A stretch of 64,000 nt of DNA, taken from the IMG/VR virus record IMGVR_UViG_3300046370_000585, positions 1-64,000 of that record; one strand, given 5' to 3'. Origin of the DNA: a virus. Position 1 is the stretch's first letter. Each line of letters begins with the position of its first letter. Position numbers and translations under genes: made by a program. The notes under the pieces are model-generated. The model did no database searches. It had not been told where the DNA came from and worked only from the letters and a program-made list of their open reading frames with translations. Shown piece by piece: positions 8,667 through 51,171 of this stretch.

Positions 8667-8695
8667 TTTACTTTTTTAAATTTTTCGCATATCAT
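8667..8695 (+). promoter_or_regulatory. Promoter giving a leaderless start at 8702
   Basis: TTTACT at 8667-8672, 17 bases, TATCAT at 8690-8695, then six bases to ATG. Confidence 0.6.
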
Positions 8696-8701
8696 AGGGC
8701 T

Positions 8702-9100
8702 ATGAATAATATAAAATATTTATTAATAGTGATGATTGCATTTCTTATTGGAGCGCAATCAAATTTTAATCAAGCTTTTGATGGAAAAATTCAACCAAAA
8801 AGTTTTTCAAGAGATTCATATAAAGTTCTAGTAGAGCATGCGAAAGGTTGTTACTTAATTGAAGTCAATAGCATTCCAGAACCTTTTGATATTGCAGGTT
8901 CGAGACCATATGTTTTATGGGTAAATGGTGAAAGATTTAACGTACCTAAACAAGACCTCAAGAATATTATTGAAAAAGTTGGTCGAGAAAACATTCCGCC
9001 AATTGACAGAAATGACATTCACAAAGGTTGGATGAGATCTTTTTTTGAAAACCCTAAAACAATTAATGATTTATTAGCAAACTCTAAACATATACAATGA
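8702..9100 (+). CDS. Exported or membrane-anchored protein, unknown
   Basis: A 132-residue protein with an N-terminal hydrophobic segment (LLIVMIAFLIGAQS) that looks like a signal anchor or signal peptide with a possible cut after AQS. The rest is soluble and unrecognised. Its stop overlaps the next start (ATGA), linking it to the cytidylyltransferase. Confidence 0.65.
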   Translation: MNNIKYLLIVMIAFLIGAQSNFNQAFDGKIQPKSFSRDSYKVLVEHAKGCYLIEVNSIPEPFDIAGSRPYVLWVNGERFNVPKQDLKNIIEKVGRENIPPIDRNDIHKGWMRSFFENPKTINDLLANSKHIQ

Positions 9101-9516
9101 AAACAGGAATCACCTTCTCTACCTTTGACTTGCTGCATGCAGGTCATGTAATGATGCTAAAAGAGGCAAAAAGTGTTTGTGATTATTTAATTTGTGGGTT
9201 GCATGTAGATCCACAAATAGAAAGGCCTCAAAAAAATTGCCCAATACAATCCTTGCCAGAAAGATATATGCAACTTTCTTCTTTAAGTTATGTTGATGAA
9301 ATAATTCCTTATCAGTATGAGCAAGACTTATGGAATATATTAAAAAGCTACAAAATAGACATTAGAATTGTTGGGTCAGACCATAAAAATACAAATTTTA
9401 GCGGCTTAGATATTTGTAAAGACTTAGGGATAGAAATATATTATAACAGCAGAAATCACGACTTCTCTAGCACAGAATTACGAAAAAGGATTGCAACTTC
9501 AGAAAAAAAGAAATAA
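9097..9516 (+). CDS. Cytidylyltransferase-like nucleotidyltransferase
   Basis: A 139-residue protein of the TagD/RfaE-C/glycerol-3-phosphate cytidylyltransferase type. It has the N-terminal FSTFDLLHAGHVMML with the HxGH nucleotide-binding motif, IVGSDHK in the middle and the SSTELRKRI that stands for the ISTTxI motif. The reaction is transfer of CMP (or another nucleotide) to a phosphorylated alcohol or sugar. The substrate is not evident. It starts a set of genes for activated-group transfer reaching to 12141. Confidence 0.85.
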   Translation: MKTGITFSTFDLLHAGHVMMLKEAKSVCDYLICGLHVDPQIERPQKNCPIQSLPERYMQLSSLSYVDEIIPYQYEQDLWNILKSYKIDIRIVGSDHKNTNFSGLDICKDLGIEIYYNSRNHDFSSTELRKRIATSEKKK

Positions 9517-9752
9517 TGTTACCAAAAAGCGATTTATCTAAAATTATTGAGTTAAATTCCTCAATTTTAAAACTATTACCTAAAAACGATTCTATGCATG
9601 ATATGTACTTCAAAATGGATAAAAGGCTAAAAGAGAGATTCGATTTATATGATAAATTTATTAAAAATCCCTACAAAGATGCTTCCCGCTCATTTAAATT
9701 AAATTCTGATAAAGAATTAGGTTTAGGCGAATATTTATCTCCAGAGGACTAG
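9516..9752 (+). CDS. Unknown protein between two cytidylyltransferases
   Basis: A 78-residue charged protein with no recognised motif. It shares one base with the preceding stop and is followed two bases later by a TTG-started gene, for which its GAGGA near 9744 can act as ribosome-binding site. Confidence 0.6.
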   Translation: MLPKSDLSKIIELNSSILKLLPKNDSMHDMYFKMDKRLKERFDLYDKFIKNPYKDASRSFKLNSDKELGLGEYLSPED

Positions 9753-9754
9753 TT

Positions 9755-11086
9755 TTGACAAAAGTAATTACTTATGGAACTTTTGATATGCTACACTCAG
9801 GGCATATTAATTTGTTAAAAAGAGCTAAAGAGCTTGGAGACTACCTAATTGTCGGAGTCACTGGAGAAGACTACGATAAACAGAGAGGCAAACTAAATGT
9901 TGCGGAGAGCTTGCACAAAAGAATAAAAAATATAGAAGAAACAGGTTTAGCAGATGAAATTATAGTAGAAGAATACTATGGTCAAAAATTAATTGACATC
10001 CAATCTAAGAATGTTGATATATTTGCAATAGGCTCAGACTGGGTGGATAAATTTAATTATTTAAAAGAGTACTGTAAGGTAATTTACCTTCCTCGCACAA
10101 AAGGCGTTTCCAGCACAAAAATTAGAAACAAAAAGAATTTCATTAAAATAGGCATCATAGGCACTGGCAATATAGCATCAAGATTTGTAAAAGAATCAAA
10201 ATTTGTTTCAAATGTCGAAATTTCATGCGTTTACTCAAAAACTTTACATAGAGCTAAACTTTTTGGACAAAAACATGAAATACAAAAATCTACCAATAAT
10301 TTAGATACATTTATACAAAACGTAGATGCCGTATACATTGCGACAATTCACGAACTGCATTATATGTTTGCAAAAAAAATGCTAAATGCCTCAAAACATG
10401 TTTTATGCGAAAAACCTCTAACTTTGAATATCGATCAATGTAAGGAACTTTGGCAATTAGCCGAAGAAAAACATCTGACTTTTTTAGAAGGGGTAAAGAC
10501 AGCCTTTTGCGAAGGTTTTATTAAAATGGTAAGCTTTGCAAAAAGTGGAGTAATTGGAGATATTATGCATTTAGATTGCTCTTTCACAAAACTAATAGAA
10601 GATAAATCCAGAAGGGAATTCATGAAAAATGGAGGAGCACATAATGAATTAATGAGTTATATGCTCTTGGCGGCAGCTAAGATTCTAGGAAAAAATGTAA
10701 AGAAATACAAGAACTTAAGATTTTACAAAAATTCTCAAGTAGATATTTTTTCTTCTTTAAACTTGGAATACGCAAACAGTATAGCAAATCTTTATTGCGG
10801 AATAGGTGCAAAAAAGCAGGGAGATTTAATCATTTCGGGCACAAAAGGATTCATTGTCTGCAAAGCGCCTTGGTGGAAAACTAAAAATATCCAAATTAAG
10901 TTCGAAGATTCATCTAAAGATTTTGAGTTAAATTTTGATTTTCAAGGAGATGGGCTGAGATATGAAATATCTGAATTTGCAAATTGCATATCTAATAAAA
11001 AAACACATTCATTCAAGTTAAATAATAAAGATTCAATTTTTATCAACAGTTATATTAATTGTAATTATTCAAAGATTGATGTGTAA
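9755..11086 (+). CDS. Fused cytidylyltransferase and Gfo/Idh/MocA oxidoreductase
   Basis: A two-domain protein of 443 residues starting at TTG. Residues 1-about 128 form a complete cytidylyltransferase (TYGTFDMLHSGHINLL, GSDW, and GVSSTKIR). Residues about 130-443 form an NAD(P)-dependent oxidoreductase with Rossmann motif IGIIGTGNIASRF and the family hallmark CEKPLTLN. The fusion suggests that one enzyme oxidises or reduces a polyol-phosphate or sugar-phosphate and the other activates it with CTP, analogous to the TarJ/TarI pair for CDP-ribitol, although the oxidoreductase family here is different. The pathway is inference. Confidence 0.88.
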   Translation: MTKVITYGTFDMLHSGHINLLKRAKELGDYLIVGVTGEDYDKQRGKLNVAESLHKRIKNIEETGLADEIIVEEYYGQKLIDIQSKNVDIFAIGSDWVDKFNYLKEYCKVIYLPRTKGVSSTKIRNKKNFIKIGIIGTGNIASRFVKESKFVSNVEISCVYSKTLHRAKLFGQKHEIQKSTNNLDTFIQNVDAVYIATIHELHYMFAKKMLNASKHVLCEKPLTLNIDQCKELWQLAEEKHLTFLEGVKTAFCEGFIKMVSFAKSGVIGDIMHLDCSFTKLIEDKSRREFMKNGGAHNELMSYMLLAAAKILGKNVKKYKNLRFYKNSQVDIFSSLNLEYANSIANLYCGIGAKKQGDLIISGTKGFIVCKAPWWKTKNIQIKFEDSSKDFELNFDFQGDGLRYEISEFANCISNKKTHSFKLNNKDSIFINSYINCNYSKIDV

Positions 11087-11094
11087 TATATTTT

Positions 11095-12329: not shown

Positions 12330-12358
12330 TTGACAAATATCATTAGATATGCTAATAT
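12330..12358 (+). promoter_or_regulatory. Consensus promoter giving a leaderless start at 12367
   Basis: TTGACA at 12330-12335, 17 bases, TAATAT at 12353-12358, then eight bases to the ATG at 12367. An earlier in-frame ATG at 12349 lies inside the promoter and would not be transcribed. Confidence 0.75.
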
Positions 12359-12366
12359 CATCATTA

Positions 12367-12555
12367 ATGAATTTAAGCAAAGACCAAGAAAAAGTGTTCT
12401 TAAAATGCGCAGAAGAGTTAACTGAGCTAGCTACAGTCTTACTGCAAGAAGTAAATAAAGACAAATGCAAATACAATAAAATTATTGAAGAAAAACTTGA
12501 CGTTGAAAAACAGCTTAATAAATTAAGCCAAATCCTCAATACTGGAGAAGTTTAA
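12367..12555 (+). CDS. Small helical protein, possibly MazG-like
   Basis: A 62-residue helical protein. The segment KCAEELTELATVLLQE followed by IIEEKLDVEKQL recalls the EExxE...ExxD arrangement of MazG-type nucleotide pyrophosphohydrolases, but it is shorter than the family and the acidic residues fit imperfectly. I treat the relation as possible only. The start is set by the promoter. Confidence 0.55.
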   Translation: MNLSKDQEKVFLKCAEELTELATVLLQEVNKDKCKYNKIIEEKLDVEKQLNKLSQILNTGEV

Positions 12556-14736: not shown

Positions 14737-14916
14737 ATGAAAAATGAAACAGAATTTATTAATTTAACAGAAATGTGGAAAGACGGAAAATATGTCGAAG
14801 TAGGAGATATTATTTTCAAGGAAGACTGGAGTCATTCAAGAGTAGCGGAGTTTTGCTTGTATTTTGCAAAATATTTAGGCTTGAAAGAATTAGATATATT
14901 AGTTAGAATATTATAA
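14737..14916 (+). CDS. Small unknown protein, 59 residues
   Basis: Begins MKNETEFINLTEMWKDG. No family is recognised. It opens a run of short same-strand genes; the next ATG follows one base after its stop. Confidence 0.6.
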   Translation: MKNETEFINLTEMWKDGKYVEVGDIIFKEDWSHSRVAEFCLYFAKYLGLKELDILVRIL

Positions 14917-14917
14917 T

Positions 14918-15091
14918 ATGAATAAATTAAAAAAACTTGTAATAAGGCTAGATGTACTAAACGAAGAAATAGAATTGATTGAGTCTTTAATTGAACCACA
15001 AGATTGTGGACACTTAAAGACAACAGTCTCGGTATTAAAAGAGAGAATGAAGAAGCTTAAAGAACAAATATACGACTGGAAAGATGAATAA
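14918..15091 (+). CDS. Small coiled-coil protein, 57 residues
   Basis: A heptad-like helical protein with leucines and isoleucines at regular spacing. It overlaps the next gene by eight bases (ATGAATAA). Confidence 0.6.
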   Translation: MNKLKKLVIRLDVLNEEIELIESLIEPQDCGHLKTTVSVLKERMKKLKEQIYDWKDE

Positions 15092-16101: not shown

Positions 16102-16130
16102 TTTACTTTGCTAAAAATATATACTATACT
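16102..16130 (+). promoter_or_regulatory. Promoter giving a leaderless start at 16139
   Basis: TTTACT at 16102-16107, 17 bases, TATACT at 16125-16130, eight bases to ATG. Confidence 0.68.
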
Positions 16131-16138
16131 GATAAAGT

Positions 16139-16474
16139 ATGAAAAATAAAGAAGGCTATTCAATAATAGAGGGAATGATCAGGCAGTCATGCGATTTGCC
16201 AATAGAACCTCCTCAGAACGAAATCACATGGGCATCTTCAGATAAGGTTAATAAATACAAAAAAGAAATTACAGAGATTCTTGATGCATTAGAAGATATT
16301 GAAGAAGGCTGGAAAGGATCATTGCTGACAGACGAAAGTTCTTTTGGAGATTATGACATGACAAAAGAAGAGCTAGCACTATTAAGCTTTAAACTACAAG
16401 AAGATATAAAGAATACAGATCTAATAGTTGATATCGCGGAAAAAATGAATAAGTTTTATGAAAGTAATTCTTAG
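16139..16474 (+). CDS. Unknown acidic protein, 111 residues
   Basis: A soluble helical protein with the phrase SLLTDESSFGDYD in the middle. No function is recognised. It has its own promoter behind the nested palindromes, and the next gene starts within its last six codons. Confidence 0.65.
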   Translation: MKNKEGYSIIEGMIRQSCDLPIEPPQNEITWASSDKVNKYKKEITEILDALEDIEEGWKGSLLTDESSFGDYDMTKEELALLSFKLQEDIKNTDLIVDIAEKMNKFYESNS

Positions 16475-17978: not shown

Positions 17979-18185
17979 ATGTTAAACAATTATAATTTAA
18001 AACTTAACCAAGAATTATCCAAGCTAAGAGCAGAGACTCCTGAATCTATAAAAGCAGAAGAAATTCTAAATAACTCCAATTCAATAGAAGAATTAAATAA
18101 GTTATTAAAAGAGCTTCCCGAAAATGAATTCGAACCAGTGGCAGAACAAATAATCAAAAAATTACGAGAAGAAAGTCTTGACTAA
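17979..18185 (+). CDS. Small helical protein, 68 residues
   Basis: A glutamate-rich helical protein. Its last codons (Leu-Asp-stop) contain the -35 box of the promoter for the lipoprotein gene. Confidence 0.6.
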   Translation: MLNNYNLKLNQELSKLRAETPESIKAEEILNNSNSIEELNKLLKELPENEFEPVAEQIIKKLREESLD

Positions 18186-18206
18186 ACAAACAAGCTGTGT
18201 TAATCT
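18178..18206 (+). promoter_or_regulatory. Promoter giving a leaderless start at 18213
   Basis: TTGACT at 18178-18183, 17 bases, TAATCT at 18201-18206, six bases to ATG. Confidence 0.68.
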
Positions 18207-18212
18207 ATAATC

Positions 18213-18401
18213 ATGACAAAATTAAAATTACTAGCAGTAACAATTTACGCTTTTTACGCCTTCGGCTGCCAAAGCAATCAGCATAAATACAACATAAAAT
18301 GGCAAGATTCTTTTCAAAATCACTTGCCAGACGAAATGCAACATAAGCTAGTAAATAGGCACGAACAAAATCAAAAAGAATTTTTTGTATCATTAAAGTA
18401 A
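18213..18401 (+). CDS. Small predicted lipoprotein
   Basis: A 62-residue protein with an N-terminal signal ending in a lipobox-like YAFGC, so it is probably lipidated and exported. It is followed two bases later by the UV endonuclease gene. A spanin-like or superinfection role is possible but not supported by any motif. Confidence 0.6.
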   Translation: MTKLKLLAVTIYAFYAFGCQSNQHKYNIKWQDSFQNHLPDEMQHKLVNRHEQNQKEFFVSLK

Positions 18402-20176: not shown

Positions 20177-20648
20177 ATTAATCAATGGAAATCTCTTAGA
20201 TTTTCCAAACGGAATTAACAGAATTGCTCATTCCTGCAACACTCATAATATTATGGGAGCAGGAATTGCGAAACAAATTAAATATCGCTACCCGCATTCA
20301 TACGCTTCTGATTGTGAAGCCATGATGCAAGGAGAAAATTCTTTAGGCAATTGGAGCTTCGCATGGGCAGATTCTACGCTAGAAAAAGGAATATATAATA
20401 TGTATACTCAAGAAAAACTTGGGGGGAATAGGGCAGTAAATTATGAAGCATTTTACAATTCTCTAGAATTTGTTGCAAAAAATTTAGAGTATCATTACCT
20501 GCATAATGATGGAGATATTATTTTTGGCTTGCCTTATGGAATTTCCTGCGGACTTGCGGGAGGGAGTTCAAGAATCATCAATACAATGATCCACGATATT
20601 TTAGTTGACATGCCGTTTAAAACATATATAGTTAAATACAATGAATAA
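20154..20648 (+). CDS. Macro domain protein
   Basis: A 164-residue single macro domain, the fold that binds or hydrolyses ADP-ribose derivatives, as in ADP-ribose-1''-phosphatases. ELINGNLLDFPN, NTHNIMGAGIAKQIKYRYP and GLPYGISCGLAGG mark the ligand loops. I use the ATG at 20154; a longer frame from 20067 adds unrelated residues that overlap another gene. Possible roles are removal of ADP-ribose marks or processing of a tRNA-splicing or NAD by-product. Confidence 0.87.
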   Translation: MIKTENLELINGNLLDFPNGINRIAHSCNTHNIMGAGIAKQIKYRYPHSYASDCEAMMQGENSLGNWSFAWADSTLEKGIYNMYTQEKLGGNRAVNYEAFYNSLEFVAKNLEYHYLHNDGDIIFGLPYGISCGLAGGSSRIINTMIHDILVDMPFKTYIVKYNE

Positions 20649-22906: not shown

Positions 22907-22913
22907 ATACACA

Positions 22914-37544: not shown

Positions 37545-37551
37545 AGGTACT

Positions 37552-37791: not shown

Positions 37792-37979
37792 CAATGATTA
37801 CAGGAAAAGAACAAATTGATGCTTTTAGGGCAAGAGTATTGCTTAGAGGCTTGAAACTAGAAACGCTTGGTATGACAAGGCGAGGACAATCTTGCTATGC
37901 AATCATCAAACAAGAATACGGATTGAAAGGCAGTAAGAAAAAAGTTTACGAAGAATTCAAAAAGATGCTTGACATATAG
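37788..37979 (+). CDS. Small basic protein, 63 residues
   Basis: Contains RGLKLETLGMTRRGQSCYAIIKQEYGLKGSK, a helix-turn-helix-like spacing seen in many small phage proteins. Its last codons (Leu-Asp-Ile) encode the -35 box for the ligase promoter. Confidence 0.62.
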   Translation: MTMITGKEQIDAFRARVLLRGLKLETLGMTRRGQSCYAIIKQEYGLKGSKKKVYEEFKKMLDI

Positions 37980-37997
37980 CAGAAAATTTGAGACAAT
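37969..37997 (+). promoter_or_regulatory. Promoter giving a leaderless start at the DNA ligase
   Basis: TTGACA at 37969-37974, 17 bases ending in TGA, GACAAT at 37992-37997, six bases to ATG 38004. Confidence 0.75.
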
Positions 37998-38003
37998 ACT
38001 ATT

Positions 38004-39229: not shown

Positions 39230-39817
39230 ATGATTGATCCAAAAAAAGTAACAAACTATAACAGAACCAAATCCGAATTACAAGAATTTCTTTTATTTTG
39301 TATTTGTGTGGCGGGCAAGAAAAGCAGAATAGAAGCACCAAAGCTTGATAGATTTTTGAGTTCACTTAAGCGTAGATTCAATGTAGAGGAACCTTTTGCC
39401 CTAATCCAATTGGCAAAAGAAGACGGAAGTCTTTGGGATGAAATGCAAGAGCATAGAATTGCTCCCTATTCGCAGAGATATAATAGCTTTATCGATGTGA
39501 TCACTAAACTTGATGGCAACAACTTAGATAAGTCTACATTAGATGAATTACAGTCTGTTAGGGGTATTAGCACAAAAACTAGCAGATTCTTCTTAACGCA
39601 TTCTGTAGAAAAATTCGATGATCCAATCTTAGATACTCATATTCTCAGATTCTTAAGCGACTTTGGTTACAGAGATGTACCCAAATCAACTCCTCAAAAT
39701 CCAAAAGTATATGAAAGATTTTCAAGGTTATTTCGAAGTATTGCTAGATTCGAAGGTAAGAGTGTGGCAGATTTTGATCTAGAAGTTTGGACAAAGTATT
39801 CTTACGGAAACGCTTGA
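39230..39817 (+). CDS. Helix-hairpin-helix DNA glycosylase, first of a pair
   Basis: A 195-residue protein of the HhH-GPD superfamily. The hairpin LQSVRGISTKTSRFFL carries a candidate catalytic Lys, and DDPILDTHILRFL supplies the conserved Asp. It resembles endonuclease III/8-oxoguanine glycosylases, which excise damaged bases. No iron-sulfur cluster cysteines follow. The ATG at 39230 is preferred to the TTG at 39221. Its TGA stop is part of the next -35 box. Confidence 0.82.
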   Translation: MIDPKKVTNYNRTKSELQEFLLFCICVAGKKSRIEAPKLDRFLSSLKRRFNVEEPFALIQLAKEDGSLWDEMQEHRIAPYSQRYNSFIDVITKLDGNNLDKSTLDELQSVRGISTKTSRFFLTHSVEKFDDPILDTHILRFLSDFGYRDVPKSTPQNPKVYERFSRLFRSIARFEGKSVADFDLEVWTKYSYGNA

Positions 39818-39842
39818 CATAAAACACCAACTCCATTATATT
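39814..39842 (+). promoter_or_regulatory. Promoter giving a leaderless start at the second glycosylase
   Basis: TTGACA at 39814-39819 overlaps the TGA stop (39815-39817). After 17 bases comes TATATT at 39837-39842, then seven bases to ATG 39850. Confidence 0.8.
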
Positions 39843-39849
39843 ATATATT

Positions 39850-40584
39850 ATGATTACAAAAACTATTGCTAAAAAACAAAACAAAAACGAGAGAGTAGAT
39901 CGCCACATAGATATTATTAGCTCATCCAACAGATATGCCAAAGTTGATAACTTCTTTGCTAAACTAAATTCTTCTGTTGTGGATAAAGAAACTAAGTATT
40001 GGGAAGAGCTTACGATTCGTGACGATGCTGAATATTTTGATCGTTGGATATTTGCCATAATGAGCGTACATACTACATGGGAGAGTAATGTAAGAGGCTA
40101 CAACGATGCAATGAGTGACTTATCATGGACAATCTCAAAGCCTAGACTAGAGAAGATGATTACTGATGCAAGAGTAGGAATCAATCATAGAAGAAACAAA
40201 GGTCTTTGGCAACTTGTTCAAAAGTTTCGCTCGAACCCTAAACAATTTCATAAGAAAAAGAATGAAACTTGGCAAGAGTGCCGTAATCGTCTTGTAGGTA
40301 GTATTTATGGGTTAGGTCTTGCGAAGACTACATATGCTATTGCACTTGGATTTCCAACAGAAGCAAAACTCTGTTGCTTAGATGTTCATTTGCTTCGTTT
40401 TATGGGTCATAATGTAAAGAAAGGTCATGCAAGTTCTCAAAAAGTTTATGAGGAAATGGAAAACGAATGGTTAGAGCGTTGTGAGCGTTATGATGTTTCG
40501 CCAAATGTTGCAAGAGAAATTTATTGGAACAAGGTGCAAAATCGTAGAAATTCTCGCTATTGGAGTTACTGCTTAGAAAGGTAA
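39850..40584 (+). CDS. Helix-hairpin-helix DNA glycosylase, second of a pair
   Basis: A 244-residue HhH protein with LVGSIYGLGLAKTTYAIAL (candidate Lys in the hairpin) and LCCLDVHLLRFMG (conserved Asp). It is related in layout to the preceding gene but diverged, so the two are separate enzymes and not one broken gene. Possible specificities are oxidised or alkylated bases. It completes a ligase-glycosylase-glycosylase set. Confidence 0.78.
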   Translation: MITKTIAKKQNKNERVDRHIDIISSSNRYAKVDNFFAKLNSSVVDKETKYWEELTIRDDAEYFDRWIFAIMSVHTTWESNVRGYNDAMSDLSWTISKPRLEKMITDARVGINHRRNKGLWQLVQKFRSNPKQFHKKKNETWQECRNRLVGSIYGLGLAKTTYAIALGFPTEAKLCCLDVHLLRFMGHNVKKGHASSQKVYEEMENEWLERCERYDVSPNVAREIYWNKVQNRRNSRYWSYCLER

Positions 40585-41151: not shown

Positions 41152-41179
41152 TTGACTTTACGAAGAAATCTGTCAAACT
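41152..41179 (+). promoter_or_regulatory. Promoter giving a leaderless start at 41188
   Basis: TTGACT at 41152-41157, 16 bases ending in TGT, CAAACT at 41174-41179, eight bases to ATG. Confidence 0.65.
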
Positions 41180-41187
41180 AATATATT

Positions 41188-41655
41188 ATGAAAAGAACAC
41201 ACGATTGCGAAAAGTACGATATTGATTTCTCTAGAAAAGTTTTTGTTTACAAGAATCTTCATAAAGGTTGTTGGAGTATAAAACAAGATGGGCTTGTGAA
41301 GGCTCATTCTGATGGTTCTCCCATAACTTTGTATTTTACACAAATGAAAGTGAATCGCAAAGGTAGAGAGCGAGTGCTTAGAGAAAAGCGTAAGAATGTT
41401 CATGCAGGTGTTGAGGGCTACCTTTCTCACGAAGATAGTCATGTTTGGCATGGTTGGGTAGACATGGTGGAAATTTCTTATAATCCATATAAGTACCCTT
41501 CATTTTACGATGTGGAAACCAAGAAGTCAAGGTGGTATGCAGATCTATGCAAACTTTATCAAGATAAGGTTCTCGTTGAACGCGTGGTGCGTGGCATCCC
41601 ATTTTTTCATAACCCTGTTTACAATGAAGCTGAAAATTGCTTGACACAAGCGTAA
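41188..41655 (+). CDS. Conserved phage protein, 155 residues
   Basis: The pattern VFVYKNLHKGCWSIKQDGLVKAH, then RVLREKRKNVHAGVEGYL, is one I know from uncharacterised proteins of many tailed phages. No catalytic motif is apparent. Its last codons include the -35 box of the next promoter. Confidence 0.75.
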   Translation: MKRTHDCEKYDIDFSRKVFVYKNLHKGCWSIKQDGLVKAHSDGSPITLYFTQMKVNRKGRERVLREKRKNVHAGVEGYLSHEDSHVWHGWVDMVEISYNPYKYPSFYDVETKKSRWYADLCKLYQDKVLVERVVRGIPFFHNPVYNEAENCLTQA

Positions 41656-41669
41656 ACCTAAACTAGACT
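41641..41669 (+). promoter_or_regulatory. Promoter giving a leaderless start at 41677
   Basis: TTGACA at 41641-41646, inside the previous gene, 17 bases, TAGACT at 41664-41669, seven bases to ATG. Confidence 0.72.
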
Positions 41670-41676
41670 ACATACT

Positions 41677-41910
41677 ATGACACAATCCAAAATCAGAGAA
41701 GAAATTCTACAACTTGTAAGAGGTAACCTTGCATGGGCAGACCCAATGTCAAAAGTATGCCTAGATCAAAATCAATTGCATCCAAAAAAGTTTCCAATTG
41801 GAAGTACATTTCAGTCCGCAGAAGAAGTCTTGGAAGACATCATTTGTGACTTGACATCCCTCCAAAATGAGCTTAGGATAGAAGCATCTTTTCAATCAGC
41901 ACAGCTATGA
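41677..41910 (+). CDS. Unknown protein, 77 residues
   Basis: A soluble helical protein overlapping the kinase-like gene by four bases; no motif is recognised. Confidence 0.6.
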   Translation: MTQSKIREEILQLVRGNLAWADPMSKVCLDQNQLHPKKFPIGSTFQSAEEVLEDIICDLTSLQNELRIEASFQSAQL

Positions 41911-42308
41911 AAACATTATACATCGTAAGAGGACTTCCAGGAAGTGGCAAGTCTAGCCTAGCAAAGAAAGTTACAGAGTTAGTATACTCTGCTGACGACT
42001 TCTTCACCAACAAGAAAGGGGAATACAATTTCAATGCCAAATTGCTTGGAAAAGCACATGAATGGTGTTGGGGCAAAGTAAGAGATGCAATGTTCATTGG
42101 AGTAGAAGCAGTTGCCGTTGCCAATACCTTTACTCAAGCATGGGAGGCAGAAAAGTATTATAAGATTGCAGAAGAGTATGGATACTCTGTCTTTGTAATT
42201 GAATGTCAAAATAACTTCGGTAATGTTCATGATGTGCCTCAAGAAAGTATTGACGCAATGAAAAAAAGATGGGAAAAAGACTTGACTCCTGTCGGCAATC
42301 TGTCATAA
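41907..42308 (+). CDS. P-loop kinase of polynucleotide-kinase / AAA_33 type
   Basis: A 133-residue P-loop protein: Walker A VRGLPGSGKSSLAKK at about 7-21, YSADDFF, then VANTFTQAWEAEKY and HDVPQESIDAMKKRWE. This pattern is shared with the kinase part of T4 polynucleotide kinase and with NEDD4BP2-like and zeta-toxin-like kinases. A role in 5'-end phosphorylation before ligation is attractive given the ligase nearby, but the substrate is not shown by sequence. Confidence 0.82.
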   Translation: MKTLYIVRGLPGSGKSSLAKKVTELVYSADDFFTNKKGEYNFNAKLLGKAHEWCWGKVRDAMFIGVEAVAVANTFTQAWEAEKYYKIAEEYGYSVFVIECQNNFGNVHDVPQESIDAMKKRWEKDLTPVGNLS

Positions 42309-42309
42309 T
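42282..42309 (+). promoter_or_regulatory. Promoter inside the end of the kinase gene
   Basis: TTGACT at 42282-42287, 16 bases ending in TGT, CATAAT at 42304-42309. A 24-base leader with AAAGGA precedes the ATG at 42340, so this unit has a normal ribosome-binding site. Confidence 0.72.
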
Positions 42310-42339
42310 TGAACATATAACACTAACAAAGGATACATT

Positions 42340-42753
42340 ATGGGATTAGATCAATACGCATATGCAACAACCGACGAGTTACCTAACTCTGAATTGGAAC
42401 TTGCATATTGGAGAAAACACAATAGACTGCAAGGTTGGATGGAAGATCTTTGGATCGACAAAGGCAAACCTAATGCAAAGAAAGACCCTAGCCCTATGGG
42501 TGATTTCAATTGCATACCTCTTGAGCTTACATTGTCAGATTTAGAGCAACTTGAAGCTCATATAGAGAATAAACAATTGCCTGCCACATTAGGCTTTTTC
42601 TTTGGGGAGGACTCTTATGAAACTAAAACAGAAGACGGAGAAACTTATCAAGAAAACGATTACGCTTACAAAGAAGAAGACCTAGCCTTTATAGAAAAGG
42701 CTCGACAAGCAATCACAGACGGCAAAAAAGTATTTTACAATTGTTGGTGGTAA
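42340..42753 (+). CDS. Conserved phage protein with MGLDQYAY start, 137 residues
   Basis: Begins MGLDQYAYA and contains LAYWRKHNRLQGWMEDLW, a pattern found in uncharacterised proteins of many phages. An AAAGGA ribosome-binding site lies eight bases upstream. Function is unknown. Confidence 0.75.
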   Translation: MGLDQYAYATTDELPNSELELAYWRKHNRLQGWMEDLWIDKGKPNAKKDPSPMGDFNCIPLELTLSDLEQLEAHIENKQLPATLGFFFGEDSYETKTEDGETYQENDYAYKEEDLAFIEKARQAITDGKKVFYNCWW

Positions 42754-42756: not shown

Positions 42757-43011
42757 ATGAAATTGCTAAAAGAAATTATTGACCATTGGGGTTTTGTAGA
42801 CTCAAGACAATTGCCCGAACTAGTAAAACATTTCCCTAACACTCCTCTTGTTATCAAGTGGGGAGGTATGCCAAGGGAACAAGTCGCTGCATCAAAAGTA
42901 GCTAGACGCATAGAAGAAGTTGAACAGTCAGGTAAAGACTATGTCCGTGAAGTCTTCATGTGTGCTAAACAAATGAACAACATCAAAGAAGTTTTTGGAT
43001 TGACAGATTGA
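42757..43011 (+). CDS. Unknown protein, 84 residues
   Basis: A soluble protein with no recognised motif. Its last codons (Leu-Thr-Asp) include the -35 box for the next gene. Confidence 0.6.
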   Translation: MKLLKEIIDHWGFVDSRQLPELVKHFPNTPLVIKWGGMPREQVAASKVARRIEEVEQSGKDYVREVFMCAKQMNNIKEVFGLTD

Positions 43012-43028
43012 TCTTAATTTGAAAGAAT
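43000..43028 (+). promoter_or_regulatory. Promoter giving a leaderless start at 43035
   Basis: TTGACA at 43000-43005, 17 bases ending in TGA, AAGAAT at 43023-43028, six bases to ATG. Confidence 0.7.
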
Positions 43029-43034
43029 ATTATC

Positions 43035-43265
43035 ATGCAGAACATAAAAGAAGATATACAAAATCAAATCCGAAAAGTATTATTTGCTTATCCTATCAAG
43101 TCTGAGATTGTTGAGGAAGTATGCCAAGTTGTTGAGCAAAACTTTCAAAACTATCCTTCGGGAAACCTCTCAGATTTACACTCGGATACTAAAGATCAAA
43201 ATCGTTATGTCGATAAAGATGCTGACATCGACATGCTCAACCAAATGTACAACCAAACGCTATAA
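43035..43265 (+). CDS. Small acidic protein, 76 residues
   Basis: A helical N-terminal half (KSEIVEEVCQVVEQNF) and an Asp-rich end. No family is recognised. Confidence 0.6.
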   Translation: MQNIKEDIQNQIRKVLFAYPIKSEIVEEVCQVVEQNFQNYPSGNLSDLHSDTKDQNRYVDKDADIDMLNQMYNQTL

Positions 43266-43267
43266 CT

Positions 43268-43558
43268 ATGAATGAATACGACCAATATATTGATGCAGTT
43301 GTCTCAGAAGACGAACTCGGCACGCTACCTCCTTTAGACTCTAAGCCCGAATACGATGTTGATTCGGATACATGGGCATTACATTTTGAGTATGAAGATC
43401 CTTATACAGGAGGAAACGACATGGTTACCTTGCATTTTGACACCGAGCAAGGCGCAATCTTAACTGCAAACAAAATTATAAGCGATAGACATATAGCTAT
43501 GTTAGAATTAGACAGAAAAAAAGCAGAAAACAGTCTTGACAAAAACCCTCAACAATGA
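43268..43558 (+). CDS. Acidic protein, 96 residues
   Basis: Contains DTWALHFEYEDPYTGGNDMVTLHFDTEQGA, a beta-hairpin-like segment, and a helical end that carries the next -35 box. No function is assigned. Confidence 0.62.
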   Translation: MNEYDQYIDAVVSEDELGTLPPLDSKPEYDVDSDTWALHFEYEDPYTGGNDMVTLHFDTEQGAILTANKIISDRHIAMLELDRKKAENSLDKNPQQ

Positions 43559-43564
43559 GATAAT
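43536..43564 (+). promoter_or_regulatory. Promoter giving a leaderless start at 43571
   Basis: TTGACA at 43536-43541, 17 bases ending in TGA, GATAAT at 43559-43564, six bases to ATG. Confidence 0.8.
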
Positions 43565-43570
43565 TATAGC

Positions 43571-43855
43571 ATGAAAAATCAAACGAATACGCTAGAAAAA
43601 ACAATCACTAACCTTCTTGCTCGCGGAACAGCGATCGCAAGTTTTGATTATAATGGTTCCGCAAGGAATGTCGTTATTGGAGCTAAGGCTTCATCAGGAG
43701 ATGACAGAGTTTGGGGAGTAATGAATAATCGAGCAATTATAGAACATAGAGGAAGAAAGTATTTATCCGCAAGAGTCAACAATGACATTGGATATGTAAA
43801 AGCTTTTTCCTTAGATAAAATTTCCAATTTTCAAGTAGATGGTTCTGTAGTATAG
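43571..43855 (+). CDS. Small WYL-like or SH3-like protein, 94 residues
   Basis: The phrase RNVVIGAK..., RKYLSARVNNDIGYVKAFSLDKI resembles the core of a WYL-type ligand-sensing domain (strand, strand, then FxLDxI). If so it would be a stand-alone small regulator, but the resemblance is weak. It is closed by a strong terminator. Confidence 0.58.
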   Translation: MKNQTNTLEKTITNLLARGTAIASFDYNGSARNVVIGAKASSGDDRVWGVMNNRAIIEHRGRKYLSARVNNDIGYVKAFSLDKISNFQVDGSVV

Positions 43856-44030: not shown

Positions 44031-44058
44031 TTGCAATTATCTTAGATTTTGTCATACT
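44031..44058 (+). promoter_or_regulatory. Promoter giving a leaderless start at 44066
   Basis: TTGCAA at 44031-44036, 16 bases ending in TGT, CATACT at 44053-44058, seven bases to ATG. Confidence 0.7.
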
Positions 44059-44065
44059 TATATAC

Positions 44066-44191
44066 ATGAAGGCAAGAGAGATAAAGATAAGAAAACAAAT
44101 TCTTTTCACCAAGTCTCGCCCACACAAGGTAAAGAAGAACACACTACATCGCAAACGCAAACACAAGGAGAACTTACATCATGTATCTTAA
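44066..44191 (+). CDS. Very basic small protein, 41 residues
   Basis: Lys/Arg/His-rich along its length (about half the residues), so likely to bind nucleic acid. The promoter fixes the ATG at 44066; the frame extends upstream to 43859 only by chance. Overlaps the next gene by 11 bases. Confidence 0.62.
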   Translation: MKAREIKIRKQILFTKSRPHKVKKNTLHRKRKHKENLHHVS

Positions 44192-45810: not shown

Positions 45811-46446
45811 ATGATTGCAGAAAAAATTGACACAAAACTTATAGAAGACTCTCTTAACTCCGTATCCTCTAACGGCATGACTCATCATGGTTATGCTTTC
45901 GAGGAATTTCTTATTCTTGCTTTAGGCTTTACTGAGCAAGATGGCACTCCTTATCGTTCAATTAGAGAAGGTGGCACTCAGAAGCATAATCAAGATTTTG
46001 ATATCCCTGCTGATGTTGTCGCTCGTAATCCAATTATACCTCAAAACTTGCAAGGTAATTGGTCTATAAAGGCTTGCGAGCATGGTAAAACAATTGGTTT
46101 AGGCATGGCAAACAATCAGTACAATGCATGGGCAAAAGACGGACTTATTCAAGCAATCGTTTTCTACAAGAAAGCTGATGATAGAAAAGTTGTTAGTCAT
46201 TTTTCTATTCATCGTATTGAGCCATCTGTCAAATTTTGGGGCAACATTTCTAAGGAAATGATTGACAACATCGACCCAATGCTTCGCAAGGATAAGTCAA
46301 TTGCATGGTCTAAAGATGAGACAAAGAAAGTAAACAGAATTGCAAACGGCATGATTGGTTTGCGTAACATCTCAAGGGAAAGCGTAGGTAGTCGCAACCT
46401 GCAATGTTACATGACTTTCAACAATTATATGCAATTAGTTGCTTGA
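45811..46446 (+). CDS. Unknown protein, 211 residues, possibly nuclease-like
   Basis: The segment YAFEEFLILALGF, FDIPADVVARNP and NWSIKACEHGKTIGLG places acidic residues before an S-x-K, loosely like a PD-(D/E)XK core, followed by a C-terminal helical part. The match is too weak for a firm call. The TGA stop is part of the next -35 box. Confidence 0.6.
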   Translation: MIAEKIDTKLIEDSLNSVSSNGMTHHGYAFEEFLILALGFTEQDGTPYRSIREGGTQKHNQDFDIPADVVARNPIIPQNLQGNWSIKACEHGKTIGLGMANNQYNAWAKDGLIQAIVFYKKADDRKVVSHFSIHRIEPSVKFWGNISKEMIDNIDPMLRKDKSIAWSKDETKKVNRIANGMIGLRNISRESVGSRNLQCYMTFNNYMQLVA

Positions 46447-46471
46447 CAAAAACCCTTTAATCTGAAAGAAT
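46443..46471 (+). promoter_or_regulatory. Promoter giving a leaderless start at 46478
   Basis: TTGACA at 46443-46448 overlaps the stop TGA (46444-46446). 17 bases ending in TGA, AAGAAT at 46466-46471, six bases to ATG. Confidence 0.72.
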
Positions 46472-46477
46472 AAAATT

Positions 46478-46708
46478 ATGGAAAACAACACTACATACAA
46501 CGGATGGAAAAATTGGGCAACTTGGAATGTTGCTCTTTGGTTAGCTAACGACGAAGATCTATACAGAATTTCTCGTAGATTTGTAAACTACAAAGATCTT
46601 GCAAATGCTCTTGAGGATTTTGGCATGAAAGTCACGCCTGATGGAGCGAGCTACCAAGATAAAGACCTTGATACTTACGCTCTTGATGAGTGGCTAATGG
46701 ATGAATAA
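46478..46708 (+). CDS. Conserved phage protein with NGWKNWATWNVALW motif, 76 residues
   Basis: The start YNGWKNWATWNVALWLANDEDLY and end LDTYALDEWLMDE are typical of a small protein family spread among phages and their hosts (DUF7249-like as I recall). Function is unknown. Confidence 0.78.
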   Translation: MENNTTYNGWKNWATWNVALWLANDEDLYRISRRFVNYKDLANALEDFGMKVTPDGASYQDKDLDTYALDEWLMDE

Positions 46709-46803: not shown

Positions 46804-46832
46804 TTGCAATTACCAAAAAACTATGCTACCTT
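46804..46832 (+). promoter_or_regulatory. Promoter giving a leaderless start at 46841
   Basis: TTGCAA at 46804-46809, 17 bases ending in TGC, TACCTT at 46827-46832, eight bases to ATG. Confidence 0.6.
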
Positions 46833-46840
46833 GTAGGTAT

Positions 46841-47026
46841 ATGATTAAGACTACTACATACAAAAAAGGAGATGTTCTGATCTCTCGTGACAACCAAGTT
46901 CTTCAGTTCAAGGGAACTTTCAACCATCCCGAACTCGGCAAGATTGCTAAGGTTCGAATTTACAACACGAACCGAGAGGTCGGCATCCGTTTCGAAGATG
47001 TCAAACTTCATCCATTTTTTTCTTAA
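46841..47026 (+). CDS. Small beta-rich protein, 61 residues
   Basis: A basic protein of alternating strands (GDVLISRDNQVLQFKGTF). An upstream ATG at 46823 falls inside the promoter, so 46841 is preferred. No family is assigned. Confidence 0.6.
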   Translation: MIKTTTYKKGDVLISRDNQVLQFKGTFNHPELGKIAKVRIYNTNREVGIRFEDVKLHPFFS

Positions 47027-47034: not shown

Positions 47035-47063
47035 TTGACAAAAACCATTTTATTTGATTGAAT
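47035..47063 (+). promoter_or_regulatory. Promoter giving a leaderless start at 47070
   Basis: TTGACA at 47035-47040, 17 bases ending in TGA, TTGAAT at 47058-47063, six bases to ATG. Confidence 0.65.
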
Positions 47064-47069
47064 ACAATT

Positions 47070-47345
47070 ATGACAGAATCACAAAGACTAGAACTCATCG
47101 CTAACGCAGTCGCCAAGACTAACAAAAAAGTTGCTCCTCAGTTTGAGGATTTACTTGCAGACCTTCTCTCAGAAAAACTTGTTGTTGAGCATGGCTTGAC
47201 AGAAGCAAAAGAAGATGACATTAAGGAGGAATTTGTTTCTCTCGATGCCGTTGGAAGTGACTCCGAGAAGGAGGACTTTGATAATGACGAAAATCTTGTC
47301 GATATGAATTGCCGAAGCTCTTTTTGGCAAGAAATTGAATCCTAA
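47070..47345 (+). CDS. Acidic protein, 91 residues
   Basis: Helical start (RLELIANAVAKTNKK) and a strongly Asp/Glu-rich end. A TTG at 47058 lies in the -10 and is rejected as start. Function unknown. Confidence 0.62.
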   Translation: MTESQRLELIANAVAKTNKKVAPQFEDLLADLLSEKLVVEHGLTEAKEDDIKEEFVSLDAVGSDSEKEDFDNDENLVDMNCRSSFWQEIES

Positions 47346-47805: not shown

Positions 47806-48009
47806 TTAGCAAGCCTTTTGAAAAACAACATTGAAGCGAAACTGATTAAGACCTTCGTCCCTCATGATTCTATTGAGATGAGACTGACTCGATGCAGTAC
47901 GAACGCGTGGGCGATCATTGCCATCGGAATCGACGCCTTGATCGAAAATTTTTACTGCCCAATGAGTTGACCACTCTTGGATTCTAACTTGTATTTTATC
48001 TTTTAGCAT
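47806..48009 (-). CDS. Small protein, minus strand, 67 residues
   Basis: Contains VRIQEWSTHWAVKIFDQGVDSDG and RVRTASSQSHLNRIMRDEGL. No family is recognised. It has its own promoter at 48015-48043. Confidence 0.6.
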   Translation of the reverse strand: MLKDKIQVRIQEWSTHWAVKIFDQGVDSDGNDRPRVRTASSQSHLNRIMRDEGLNQFRFNVVFQKAC

Positions 48010-48014
48010 AACTA

Positions 48015-48043
48015 ACTATCGCATATTTTATTACTGAAGTCAA
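48015..48043 (-). promoter_or_regulatory. Minus-strand promoter for the 48009 start
   Basis: Read on the minus strand: TTGACT (48043-48038), 17 bases ending in TGC, GATAGT (48020-48015), five bases to ATG. Confidence 0.65.
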
Positions 48044-48613: not shown

Positions 48614-48802
48614 TCAAAAGTCATGTTGGGCATGATACCCGTAGTCAATGTCCTCTTGCTCCTCGAAGTCAAGAAGAGCAATCCTGTCTTGCAGGTCGCC
48701 AATTTCATTGCGAATCGCGACTCGGTCTGCAACCGAAAGAACGCAGTCCTTAAGGGTTTCGTGAAGGATAGAGATTTCTTTGAGCATTTCTGATTTAGTC
48801 AT
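48614..48802 (-). CDS. Small helical protein, minus strand, 62 residues
   Basis: An acidic coiled-coil-like protein (IGDLQDRIALLDFEEQEDIDYG). Function unknown. A strong minus-strand promoter precedes it. Confidence 0.6.
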   Translation of the reverse strand: MTKSEMLKEISILHETLKDCVLSVADRVAIRNEIGDLQDRIALLDFEEQEDIDYGYHAQHDF

Positions 48803-48808
48803 AAGTAT

Positions 48809-48836
48809 AATCTAACACAAATTTTTATAAAGTCAA
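48809..48836 (-). promoter_or_regulatory. Minus-strand promoter for the 48802 start
   Basis: On the minus strand: TTGACT (48836-48831), 16 bases ending in TGT, TAGATT (48814-48809), six bases to ATG. Confidence 0.72.
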
Positions 48837-49263: not shown

Positions 49264-49302
49264 TCGTGCCAATTAAAAAAGTTTATTTTACGAAAAAAAG
49301 TG

Positions 49303-49330
49303 TTGACTTAGCTTCCCATTTGTGCATAAT
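49303..49330 (+). promoter_or_regulatory. Promoter giving a leaderless start at 49338
   Basis: TTGACT at 49303-49308, 16 bases, CATAAT at 49325-49330, seven bases to ATG. Confidence 0.75.
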
Positions 49331-49337
49331 GGTATAC

Positions 49338-49481
49338 ATGAACGCTAAAGAAAGAATGAATGAATGGAAAAAGCTTCCTTCGAATACTATTGCTTGGGAA
49401 ACTTTCAAACGGCTAGTATCTCAGTTCGGAATGGACGAAGGTATCAAGAAAGCCCAAAAGATAATTGAAAAAAAAGGTTGA
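49338..49481 (+). CDS. Small basic protein, 47 residues
   Basis: A helical protein (ERMNEWKKLPSNTIAWETFKRLVSQ). The promoter sets the ATG at 49338; the frame's earlier ATG at 49266 is upstream of the promoter. Its TGA stop is within the next -35 box. Confidence 0.6.
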   Translation: MNAKERMNEWKKLPSNTIAWETFKRLVSQFGMDEGIKKAQKIIEKKG

Positions 49482-49507
49482 CAAACACACATAAAAACTG
49501 ATAGGAT
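49478..49507 (+). promoter_or_regulatory. Promoter giving a leaderless start at 49514
   Basis: TTGACA at 49478-49483 overlaps stop TGA (49479-49481). TAGGAT at 49502-49507 lies after 18 bases ending in TGA, then six bases to ATG. Confidence 0.65.
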
Positions 49508-49513
49508 TACATC

Positions 49514-50236
49514 ATGCTAAAAACTACATTGCTTACATCAGGAAACCAAAAAATTCTCAAAGGCGAAAAACTTGGTTATATAACAAAAGGTATTCATCTT
49601 GCCCCAGCAAATCTTGCGGGCTACGAAGTTTGCCAATGGCGATCAAAGGGTTGCACTATGGCTTGTCTTAACACGGCAGGTCGTGGACAAATGAATTCTG
49701 TGCAACAATCACGCATTGCCAAGACAAAACTCTTTTTTGAGCAAAAAACTGATTTTCTTGCTAAACTTGCAAAAGAAATCACATCTACCATAAAAAGCTC
49801 AATCAAGAAAGAAATGCAAGCGGTATTCCGTCTCAATCTCACAAGCGACATTATGTGGGAAAGCGAAAAAGACTTGCAAGGAAAAACAATTTTTGAGCAA
49901 TTCAAAGATACCATGTTTTACGATTACACAAAGTCGTTCAAACGCATGACAAACTTTCTTTCAAAAGAAAAAAACTTTCCATCAAACTATCACTTAACTT
50001 TCAGCCGTTCGGAGCATAACGACAAACTTTGCGAAATGGTTCTCGAAATGGGTGGTAATGTTGCCGTGGTATTTAGGAATCAACTTCCGCAAACTTGGAA
50101 GGGTTGCGAAGTTGTAAATGGCGACGAAACGGACTTGCGTTTTCTCGACAAAAAAGGTGTGGTCGTCGGGCTTATCGAAAAAGGTATGGCAAAGAAAGAT
50201 GAAACAGGATTTGTTCAAGAAGGAATTGACTCTTGA
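49514..50236 (+). CDS. Conserved phage protein with Cx6Cx3C motif (DUF7227-like)
   Basis: A 240-residue protein with Cys40, Cys47 and Cys51 in CQWRSKGCTMACLNTAGRG, then FRLNLTSDIMWE, FYDYTKSFKRM, YHLTFSRSEHND and VNGDETDLRFLD. This order is shared by a widespread, uncharacterised phage family. The cysteine cluster could bind a metal or iron-sulfur centre, but spacing does not match radical SAM. Its TGA stop lies in the next -35 box. Confidence 0.8.
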   Translation: MLKTTLLTSGNQKILKGEKLGYITKGIHLAPANLAGYEVCQWRSKGCTMACLNTAGRGQMNSVQQSRIAKTKLFFEQKTDFLAKLAKEITSTIKSSIKKEMQAVFRLNLTSDIMWESEKDLQGKTIFEQFKDTMFYDYTKSFKRMTNFLSKEKNFPSNYHLTFSRSEHNDKLCEMVLEMGGNVAVVFRNQLPQTWKGCEVVNGDETDLRFLDKKGVVVGLIEKGMAKKDETGFVQEGIDS

Positions 50237-50261
50237 CAAAACAACTTAACTCAACTATTAT
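50233..50261 (+). promoter_or_regulatory. Promoter giving a leaderless start at 50268
   Basis: TTGACA at 50233-50238 overlaps stop TGA (50234-50236). 17 bases, TATTAT at 50256-50261, six bases to ATG. Confidence 0.8.
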
Positions 50262-50267
50262 TTCAAC

Positions 50268-50435
50268 ATGAATGACACTTATTACGACTCAGCAGAAGGA
50301 ATAACCTTATCACAAGAAGAAGCCTTTGGGGTGCTTGCCCAACATGGTTGCCAAGAACTTGATGAATTTTTTCAAGACATGGGTGACAAAGAAGAATATG
50401 ACGCACAGAAAGTTTTAGAGTGGCTAGGGTATTGA
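50268..50435 (+). CDS. Conserved small phage protein, 55 residues
   Basis: Pattern DSAEGITLSQEEAFGVLAQHG then EEYDAQKVLEWLGY, typical of a small acidic family seen in many phages. Function unknown. Leaderless start predicted. Confidence 0.72.
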   Translation: MNDTYYDSAEGITLSQEEAFGVLAQHGCQELDEFFQDMGDKEEYDAQKVLEWLGY

Positions 50436-50513: not shown

Positions 50514-50542
50514 TTGACATATTCCTTCAAGGGGTTTATATT
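50514..50542 (+). promoter_or_regulatory. Promoter giving a leaderless start at 50549
   Basis: TTGACA at 50514-50519, 17 bases, TATATT at 50537-50542, six bases to ATG. Confidence 0.82.
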
Positions 50543-50548
50543 ACTTAT

Positions 50549-50746
50549 ATGAACACTAAAAAAGAATTACAAGAGATTATCCAACAAAACACTGAAGCTG
50601 CAGAACTTGGCTGTGCTTTTTCTCGCATGAAAATTATAAATGCCCAAGCAGAACTAGATAAAATTGAAAGTCAATCCAAGGAATCTGTTTTGGAATTATT
50701 TTCTCAACAACAAAGAAATTTAGTTGAATTTAGCTTGACATTCTGA
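50549..50746 (+). CDS. Small helical protein, 65 residues
   Basis: A coiled-coil-like protein rich in Gln and Glu. The in-frame ATG at 50465 lies upstream of the promoter and inside the repeat, so it is rejected as start. Function unknown. Confidence 0.62.
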   Translation: MNTKKELQEIIQQNTEAAELGCAFSRMKIINAQAELDKIESQSKESVLELFSQQQRNLVEFSLTF

Positions 50747-50765
50747 ACCAAAACATTAGGATTAT
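50735..50765 (+). promoter_or_regulatory. Promoter-like site before 50773, -10 uncertain
   Basis: TTGACA at 50735-50740 inside the previous gene. The -10 may be AGGATT (17-base spacer) or GATTAT at 50760-50765 (19-base spacer, seven bases to ATG). Confidence 0.5.
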
Positions 50766-50772
50766 ATTTACT

Positions 50773-50937
50773 ATGAAAATTCAACAAGAAATCTCTCGAC
50801 TAACTTCAACGCTTCAAGCCCTCACTCAACAAAGACTTCTCGCTCTTCGTGAGGGTAAACATTCCGAAGCCAATCAGATTGCCTCTGTGCAAGTTGATAT
50901 TGATAACAAGATTCAAGAGCTAGAAAAAAAGATATAA
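50773..50937 (+). CDS. Small coiled-coil protein, 54 residues
   Basis: An amphipathic helix from end to end (MKIQQEISRLTSTLQALTQ and later VDIDNKIQELEKKI). It resembles in layout the preceding gene. Function unknown. Confidence 0.58.
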   Translation: MKIQQEISRLTSTLQALTQQRLLALREGKHSEANQIASVQVDIDNKIQELEKKI

Positions 50938-50944
50938 TTTTAGC

Positions 50945-50973
50945 TTGACACTCCAACCATATTACTACATACT
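50945..50973 (+). promoter_or_regulatory. Promoter giving a leaderless start at 50980
   Basis: TTGACA at 50945-50950, 17 bases, CATACT at 50968-50973, six bases to ATG. Confidence 0.75.
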
Positions 50974-50979
50974 GATATT

Positions 50980-51171
50980 ATGATTACGATAAAAAGACAC
51001 CCAAACCTTGATAATTGGATAAACATTAGCTTCTTTGGTAAGCTCATTGAGCAAACTACTTCGAGGGCTAAAGCATTGCGTCTTGCGACTGCACTCTCTC
51101 GAAAGAATAACGATGTTGTTATTCATGACCTTGACGAACTACCTATTCACCTAAGATCAAGCAACTCATGA
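50980..51171 (+). CDS. Small protein, 63 residues
   Basis: Strand-then-helix layout (ITIKRHPNLDNWINISFFGKLIE, TSRAKALRLATALSRK) as in many small phage proteins. Overlaps the next gene by four bases. Confidence 0.62.
   Translation: MITIKRHPNLDNWINISFFGKLIEQTTSRAKALRLATALSRKNNDVVIHDLDELPIHLRSSNS

Follow-up and report, generated by a model that had tools for sequence, protein, structure and literature searches.

Leaderless genes in phages and the phage under study

Leaderless messenger RNAs (mRNAs), which begin at or beside the A of the start codon, have been described in a few phages and bacteria. Most middle and late mRNAs of Thermus phage phiYS40 are leaderless, according to the description of the work of Sevostyanova et al. 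(2007) in PMC3594737; the cI mRNA of phage lambda begins at AUG (PMC9031893, PMC3160421); and in Deinococcus-Thermus a TANNNT motif is found at a fixed distance ahead of the open reading frame (ORF), an arrangement seen in roughly a third of D. radiodurans genes (PMC12340547). A comparable layout is presented here for the uncultivated virus of IMG/VR record IMGVR_UViG_3300046370_000585 (70,696 bases, 70.7 kb), where about 35 genes carry a sigma70-type promoter whose -10 box ends a few bases before the ATG. The whole stretch of DNA analysed, bases 1-64000 of the record, is called the window; the remainder was read as L009.

Phage phiYS40 is the closest of these systems, since many of its genes have -10 boxes a few bases ahead of the start codon and the same scan gave it the same peak at gap 6 (the gap being the number of bases between the -10 box and the ATG). 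Its many leaderless genes across the genome are matched here, by DNA signal, at 35 of 133 starts. However, phiYS40 infects Thermus, of a phylum rich in leaderless genes, and its reported genes are middle and late, whereas the present marine phage has complete TTGACA/-10 promoters on apparently non-structural genes. The phiYS40 programme is also marked by changed levels of the host factors IF2 and IF3. Deinococcus-Thermus shares the -10 motif at a fixed distance before the ORF, but in cellular genes and with no -35 box required; in the marine phage a -35 box stands at nearly all sites, partly since the scan demands one. Lambda cI is likewise a phage mRNA starting at AUG, but it is one gene and not a genome-wide layout. 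Phages AR9 and T4 are large as well and use different promoters for early and late transcription, but AR9 has leaders of 26-491 bases and T4 has a strong Shine-Dalgarno (SD) signal. The open-access papers searched on leaderless expression gave the phiYS40 and lambda precedents and nothing on this lineage, which is weak evidence of novelty because subscription journals mostly lay outside them. There is thus a precedent in phiYS40, while a sigma70 form of the layout that runs through a whole lineage of marine phages appears to be new.

Distance between promoter and start codon

It had been claimed in an earlier note on this DNA that more than 25 genes on both strands have a promoter directly before the ATG, in a geometry repeated almost to the base, and a position-specific scan against shuffled sequence had been proposed as a check. 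A consensus scan (at least 5 of 6 matches in the -35 box, at least 4 of 6 in the -10 box, spacer 16-18) of all ATGs on both strands of the whole 70.7-kb record found 16 sites at gap 6 and 10 at gap 7, where 40 dinucleotide shuffles gave about 2 at either gap; for gaps 5-8 pooled it found 34, the shuffles giving a mean of 7.9 and a maximum of 14. The second scan employed a generic E. coli-type sigma70 weight matrix, not trained on the phage genome, with a 7-bit cut-off picked after an initial look, and was applied to 134 gene starts called by a simple caller of our own. At gaps 5-8 it returned 38 promoter-like sites, which belong to 35 genes, while shuffled upstreams gave 1.47 expected and no more than 6 in any of 300 shuffles. 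By gap these sites numbered 3 (gap 5), 18 (gap 6), 8 (gap 7) and 9 (gap 8), most other gaps having 0 to 2, and at gap 6 alone only 0.4 was expected. The 35 genes make up about a quarter of the 133 starts scored, as judged by DNA signal only.

The sites have the composition of sigma70 promoters, a TTGACA-like -35 box followed at 16-18 bases by a -10 box, and where the first T of the -10 box is missing there is often an extended -10 TG, as in CTGTCATACT and TTTGAGATACT. That the -10 box ends about six bases ahead of the start codon, beyond what chance gives, is confirmed as a property of the DNA. All 18 starts named as examples were recovered as site-bearing genes; only two or three cases lie on the minus strand (48009, 48802 and, weakly, 49184). 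About half of the genes fit the description "almost to the base", because the best gaps are spread over 5 (2 genes), 6 (17), 7 (8) and 8 (8). The -35 boxes at 6291 and 16942, two of the 35 genes, are weak and may be chance.

A genome of 34% GC invites the explanation that TA-rich sequence near the ATG of AT-rich DNA only mimics -10 boxes. This is hardly credible, since not only the shuffles but also non-start ATGs yield far fewer sites (0.28 per gene start against 0.013 on the plus strand and 0.022 on the minus strand per non-start ATG). Moreover, control phages run through the same gene caller and scan gave no gap-6 peak in T4, HTVC008M, NiceHouse and DC31, with zero sites at gaps 5-8 in T4 and HTVC008M, whose GC equals that of the window phage, and the spacing is retained in relatives of 41-43% GC.

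Transcription start and Shine-Dalgarno signals

Bacterial transcription starts show the usual pyrimidine-purine preference, so that C or T is predicted at position -1 if the mRNA begins with the A of the ATG. In the window C or T precedes this A in 16 of 17 gap-6 genes compared with 58 of 98 other genes, and in nine relatives in 95 of 117 leaderless-type genes (81%) compared with 400 of 808 others (50%, p = 4e-11); in gp88 it does so in all 34 sequences. The excess is as expected with an mRNA start at the A. SD motifs are rare at these starts: SD-like 4-mers precede 3 of the 35 (1.7 expected) and 9 of the 117 in relatives, while the remaining window genes have them in 21 of 98 cases (10 expected). 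The SD signal of this lineage is far weaker than that of T4 or DC31, also in its other genes when T4 is the comparison.

Leaderless transcription of these genes, with mRNAs starting at or beside the A as had been proposed, is well supported and very likely, because the gap peak, the pyrimidine at -1, the retention in orthologues and both the positive and the negative control phages point the same way. One variant accepts the promoters as real and places the start a few bases earlier, giving leaders of 1-5 bases without an SD motif and a near-leaderless translation. The choice of start by sigma70 shifts by a few bases, and gaps of 7-8 occur in 16 of 35 genes; against this, gap 6 dominates and the base before the A is enriched in pyrimidines, which leaves this variant rather unlikely.

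Conservation in related phages

The geometry is conserved across the lineage. Nine related contigs with 925 genes were pooled; since they are related to one another and a single bin supplied two of them, they cannot count as nine separate tests, and the caller probably undercalled some records (coverage 0.47 in G005 and 0.31 in G023 C12). In this pool gap 6 accounted for 63 sites and gap 7 for 28, with about 4.5 per gap elsewhere, and the relative G001 had 44 matches to the pattern and 1 to the reversed pattern. A site at gap 5-8 was retained in 49 of 78 orthologue pairs, down to about 40% protein identity.

The gp88 gene gives the most detailed case. In all 31 distinct upstreams of the lineage the best site lies at gap 6 (20) or 7 (11), 23 of these sites score more than 7 bits, and an SD motif is found in none of the 31; gaps 5-8 are empty in the 12 distant gp88 homologues, half a dozen of which carry SD-like motifs. 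Similarly, an AGGAG-like stretch precedes the start in the distant ligase homologues L020, L023 and L024, and the promoter is absent there. Both families thus seem to contain leaderless-type and SD versions, so that either mode can probably serve one gene.

It could be argued that the called ATGs are wrong and that translation really begins further downstream, after an ordinary leader with an SD motif, as the starts were called without experimental data. This is very improbable: an SD-preceded in-frame ATG within codons 3-25 occurs in none of the 35 genes, the coding-type conservation of gp88 begins at codon 2, and orthologues begin at the same place as the called starts.

Several points nevertheless weigh against leaderless transcription as the reading of these sites. 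The gene starts rest on a home-made caller, and gap 8, found in 8 of the 35 genes, could mean leaders of 1-3 bases. At gap 6 the control phage XacN1 had 3 sites where the background was 1.1, from which it seems that leaderless-type genes occasionally arise elsewhere. The upstream entropy of gp88 shows a modest contrast, about 1.1 bits in the boxes and about 1.5 in the spacer, partly because gaps vary by one base.

Proposed mechanism

The best explanation overall, which we hold to be highly probable, is that some 35 genes depend on sigma70 promoters fused to the start codon and giving leaderless mRNA. Each gene would be driven by a host-type promoter (TTGACA, 16-18 bases, often TGn, and the -10 box), and with a -10 box ending about 6 bases ahead of the ATG the host RNA polymerase would be expected to start at the A or within 1-2 bases of it. 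As this would leave no leader, we infer that initiation proceeds by direct recognition of the 5'-terminal AUG. Translation of the downstream genes on the same transcripts, many of which overlap slightly (by a few bases), would rely on coupling. A smaller set of promoters sits 27-46 bases ahead of the start, in some cases with AGGA, and the structural block would probably be under other signals, perhaps via a sigma-like protein encoded at 60585.

Genes and promoter sites of the window

The virus is a tailed phage with a terminase large subunit (TerL) gene at 63351-65216. Its best match among 50,697 phage records has about 26% identity over 58%, which indicates no close relative, and a terminase search of IMG/VR found at least 598 related stretches. 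Other identified genes are rIIB (32560), DNA ligase (38004), by which relatives were found on contigs up to 211 kb, and gp88 (49514); a HATPase lies at 30229, where rIIA usually sits.

The sites fall mostly on small genes within 12-51 kb and are given below as -35 box, spacer length and -10 box, with the ATG and the extent of the site, on the plus strand unless stated; TG marks an extended -10. At gap 6 these are TTTACT-17-TATCAT (ATG 8702, 8667-8704), TTGACT-17-TAATCT (18213, 18178-18215), TTGACA-17-CAGGAT with TG (25858, 25823-25860) and TTGACA-16-CATTAT with TG (27997, 27963-27999), the last two retained in G001. TTGACT-17-CAATAT (35256, 35221-35258) and TTGACA-17-TAGTAT (36699, 36664-36701) are each retained in two relatives. 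Then come TTGACA-17-GACAAT with TG at the DNA ligase gene (38004, 37969-38006), TTGACA-17-AAGAAT with TG twice (43035, 43000-43037; 46478, 46443-46480), TTGACA-17-GATAAT with TG (43571, 43536-43573), TTGACA-17-TTGAAT with TG (47070, 47035-47072), TTGACT-16-TAGATT on the minus strand (48802, 48800-48836) and TTGACA-18-TAGGAT at gp88 (49514, 49478-49516). The remaining gap-6 sites are TTGACA-17-TATTAT (50268, 50233-50270), TTGACA-17-TATATT (50549, 50514-50551), TTGACA-17-CATACT (50980, 50945-50982) and TTGAAA-16-TATCAT at a sialyltransferase-like gene (57777, 57743-57779).

At gap 7 there are TTGACA-17-TAATAT (22914, 22878-22916), TTGACA-16-CATACT with TG (29237, 29202-29239), TTGACT-16-CATACT with TG (37552, 37517-37554), retained in two relatives, TTGACA-17-TATATT at an Ogg-like glycosylase gene (39850, 39814-39852), TTGACA-17-TAGACT (41677, 41641-41679) and TTGCAA-16-CATACT with TG (44066, 44031-44068). 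Gap 8 is found with TTGACA-17-TAATAT (12367, 12330-12369), TTGAAA-17-TAGAAT (14918, 14881-14920), TTTACT-17-TATACT (16139, 16102-16141), TTGACA-16-TATAGT (20641, 20605-20643), where a G015 orthologue retains gap 8, TTGACA-17-GATACT with TG (36268, 36231-36270), TTGACT-16-CAAACT with TG at a gene of the L5 gp82 family (41188, 41152-41190) and TTGCAA-17-TACCTT (46841, 46804-46843). TTGACT-17-GATAGT on the minus strand has gap 5 (48009, 48007-48043). Two sites can be read in two ways: TTGACA-17-TATACT with gap 10 or TACTTT with gap 8 (23929, 23890-23931), and TTGACA-16-TAGGAT with gap 10 or TTGACA-19-GATTAT with gap 7 (50773, 50735-50775). A probable extra leaderless-type gene lies at 49301-49341 (plus strand), with TTGACT-16-CATAAT and then an ATG at about 49339, where the caller took an earlier ATG.

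A palindrome AAATCG(loop)CGATTT, its arms sometimes extended by TTGGCA/TGCCAA, has ten copies in the window (37444, 41109, 43918, 45593, 46729, 47556, 48593, 48853, 49249, 50448), and for six of these the -35 box of a leaderless-type promoter follows 16-94 bases downstream. Among relatives it is present ten times in G001 and twice in G013 and is absent from G003, G014, G015 and G017. Other features are a manA RNA motif (RF01745, 81 bits, full model) at 5069-5280 (plus strand), distant from the leaderless promoters, about 24 tandem 18-base units at 7164-7594, each encoding GSGDTS, in the gene of a protein that has a Laminin_G_3 domain, and a small heat-shock protein (HSP20) gene at 51687-52073 (minus strand), directly past the cassette region.

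Promoters with leaders and the structural block

The assertion that this phage systematically avoids ribosome-binding sites proved too strong, given the SD-like excess in its other genes and seven strong promoters situated 27-46 bases before a start (-10 positions 2191, 27097, 32540, 41874, 42304, 44432 and 45769, where for 32540 the ATG at 32590 is the start meant); AGGA-type motifs accompany three of these promoters. The contrast cases, all on the plus strand, are a strong promoter that has AGGA and a leader of roughly 30 bases before the ATG at 27138 (27075-27140), TTGACA-17-GATAAT with a leader and AAGGA at rIIB (32517-32592), and TTGACT-16-CATAAT, which has AAAGGA and a leader of roughly 25 bases, before the ATG at 42340 (42282-42342). 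Among intergenic sites above 9.5 bits, 22 of 42 lie at gaps 4-10.

The matrix scan found no leaderless-type promoters in the structural block at 62-70.7 kb of this record, which is a fragment. As to timing, we infer an early or middle class for the leaderless-type genes, which fits their positions, the structural block being devoid of such promoters. Near the terminase gene, 60585-61358 (plus strand) encodes a probable phage sigma factor, an assignment that draws mainly on weak sequence matches: sigma-70 region 2 (E 4.6e-4, below the Pfam cut-off) and sigma factors in PDB. A fold comparison made with a low-confidence model (predicted template modelling score, pTM, 0.37) ranks extracytoplasmic function (ECF) sigma factors first, with E values no better than 5e-3, and homologues of the protein adjoin the terminase in most terminase relatives examined. 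A T4-like split into host-sigma and phage-sigma genes is plausible. The T4-type late motif TATAAATA was considered and rejected, as it is not concentrated ahead of late genes.

Host and ribosomes

The suggestion that leaderless genes are matched to changed ribosomes has found no support so far. No bS21 gene was present in 19 phage records and no ribosome-modifying gene was identified, where only bS21 was specifically sought and the domain hits of the scanned genes were read.

The layout may instead have its cause in the host, the phage matching a bacterium rich in leaderless genes, which is compatible with start-codon-fused promoters. We consider this possible, somewhat short of an even chance. 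The example of phiYS40 and the Deinococcus-Thermus hosts speaks for it, as does the little SD signal in the other genes of the lineage in comparison with T4. On the other side, segments of a Halobacteriovorax metagenome-assembled genome (MAG), the only bin sampled among those with related phage contigs, show no gap-6 peak and have SD-like 4-mers in 100 of 190 genes (53%), this bin being weak host evidence. TerL matches were found in four MAG contigs of differing taxa (Halobacteriovorax, Flavobacteriaceae, Verrucomicrobiales and one unnamed), so the host signals disagree, and the phage transfer-messenger RNAs (tmRNAs) point to none of these bins, sharing 43-54% identity with the tmRNAs that the bins carry on contigs other than phage ones. 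A pattern scan of Verrucomicrobiota gave modest counts in a few genomes (G077 16, G031 13, reversed-pattern control 0), and no conclusion is drawn because that control ignores promoters at other gaps.

In MAG PBIO01 (Halobacteriovorax sp. SP2999) contigs C4, C12, C24 and C33 match proteins of this phage lineage, and the C24 tmRNA is 94% identical to that of phage G001. A tmRNA is present in six relatives, G001, G003, G004, G014, G015 and G017 (e.g. L142:8065-8440, L164:18398-18798), that of G003 and G004 probably being the same one, and none was found in the 70.7-kb record of the window. ARAGORN read the tag as 31 residues and basic in G014 (GNKNRVRALGFKNRLAAKRFGFKGRKLALAA) and as 21 residues in G003.

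Significance

Several purposes of such a layout are possible. A promoter ending at the ATG may turn a small gene into a self-contained unit, or the host may simply favour leaderless mRNAs. It is also possible that leaderless mRNAs, which can start on 70S ribosomes, gain when infection alters initiation-factor levels (PMC9031893). The boldest version, that large marine phages of a widespread lineage run a dedicated leaderless programme, with non-structural genes as self-contained promoter-ATG cassettes that do without a ribosome-binding site and with infection shifting host ribosomes to 5'-terminal AUGs while the other phage genes keep their leaders, we regard as doubtful.

Gene calling is affected too, since start predictors relying on ribosome-binding sites would lack that cue here. 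A natural comparison for a change of initiation mode is offered by the families of gp88 and the ligase. A genome-wide leaderless layout has seldom been described in phages outside hosts such as Thermus, and here, in a lineage of uncultured marine phages, dozens of genes have a transcription start that is predicted to the single base from a signal in the DNA, which makes the claim directly testable in existing metatranscriptomes.

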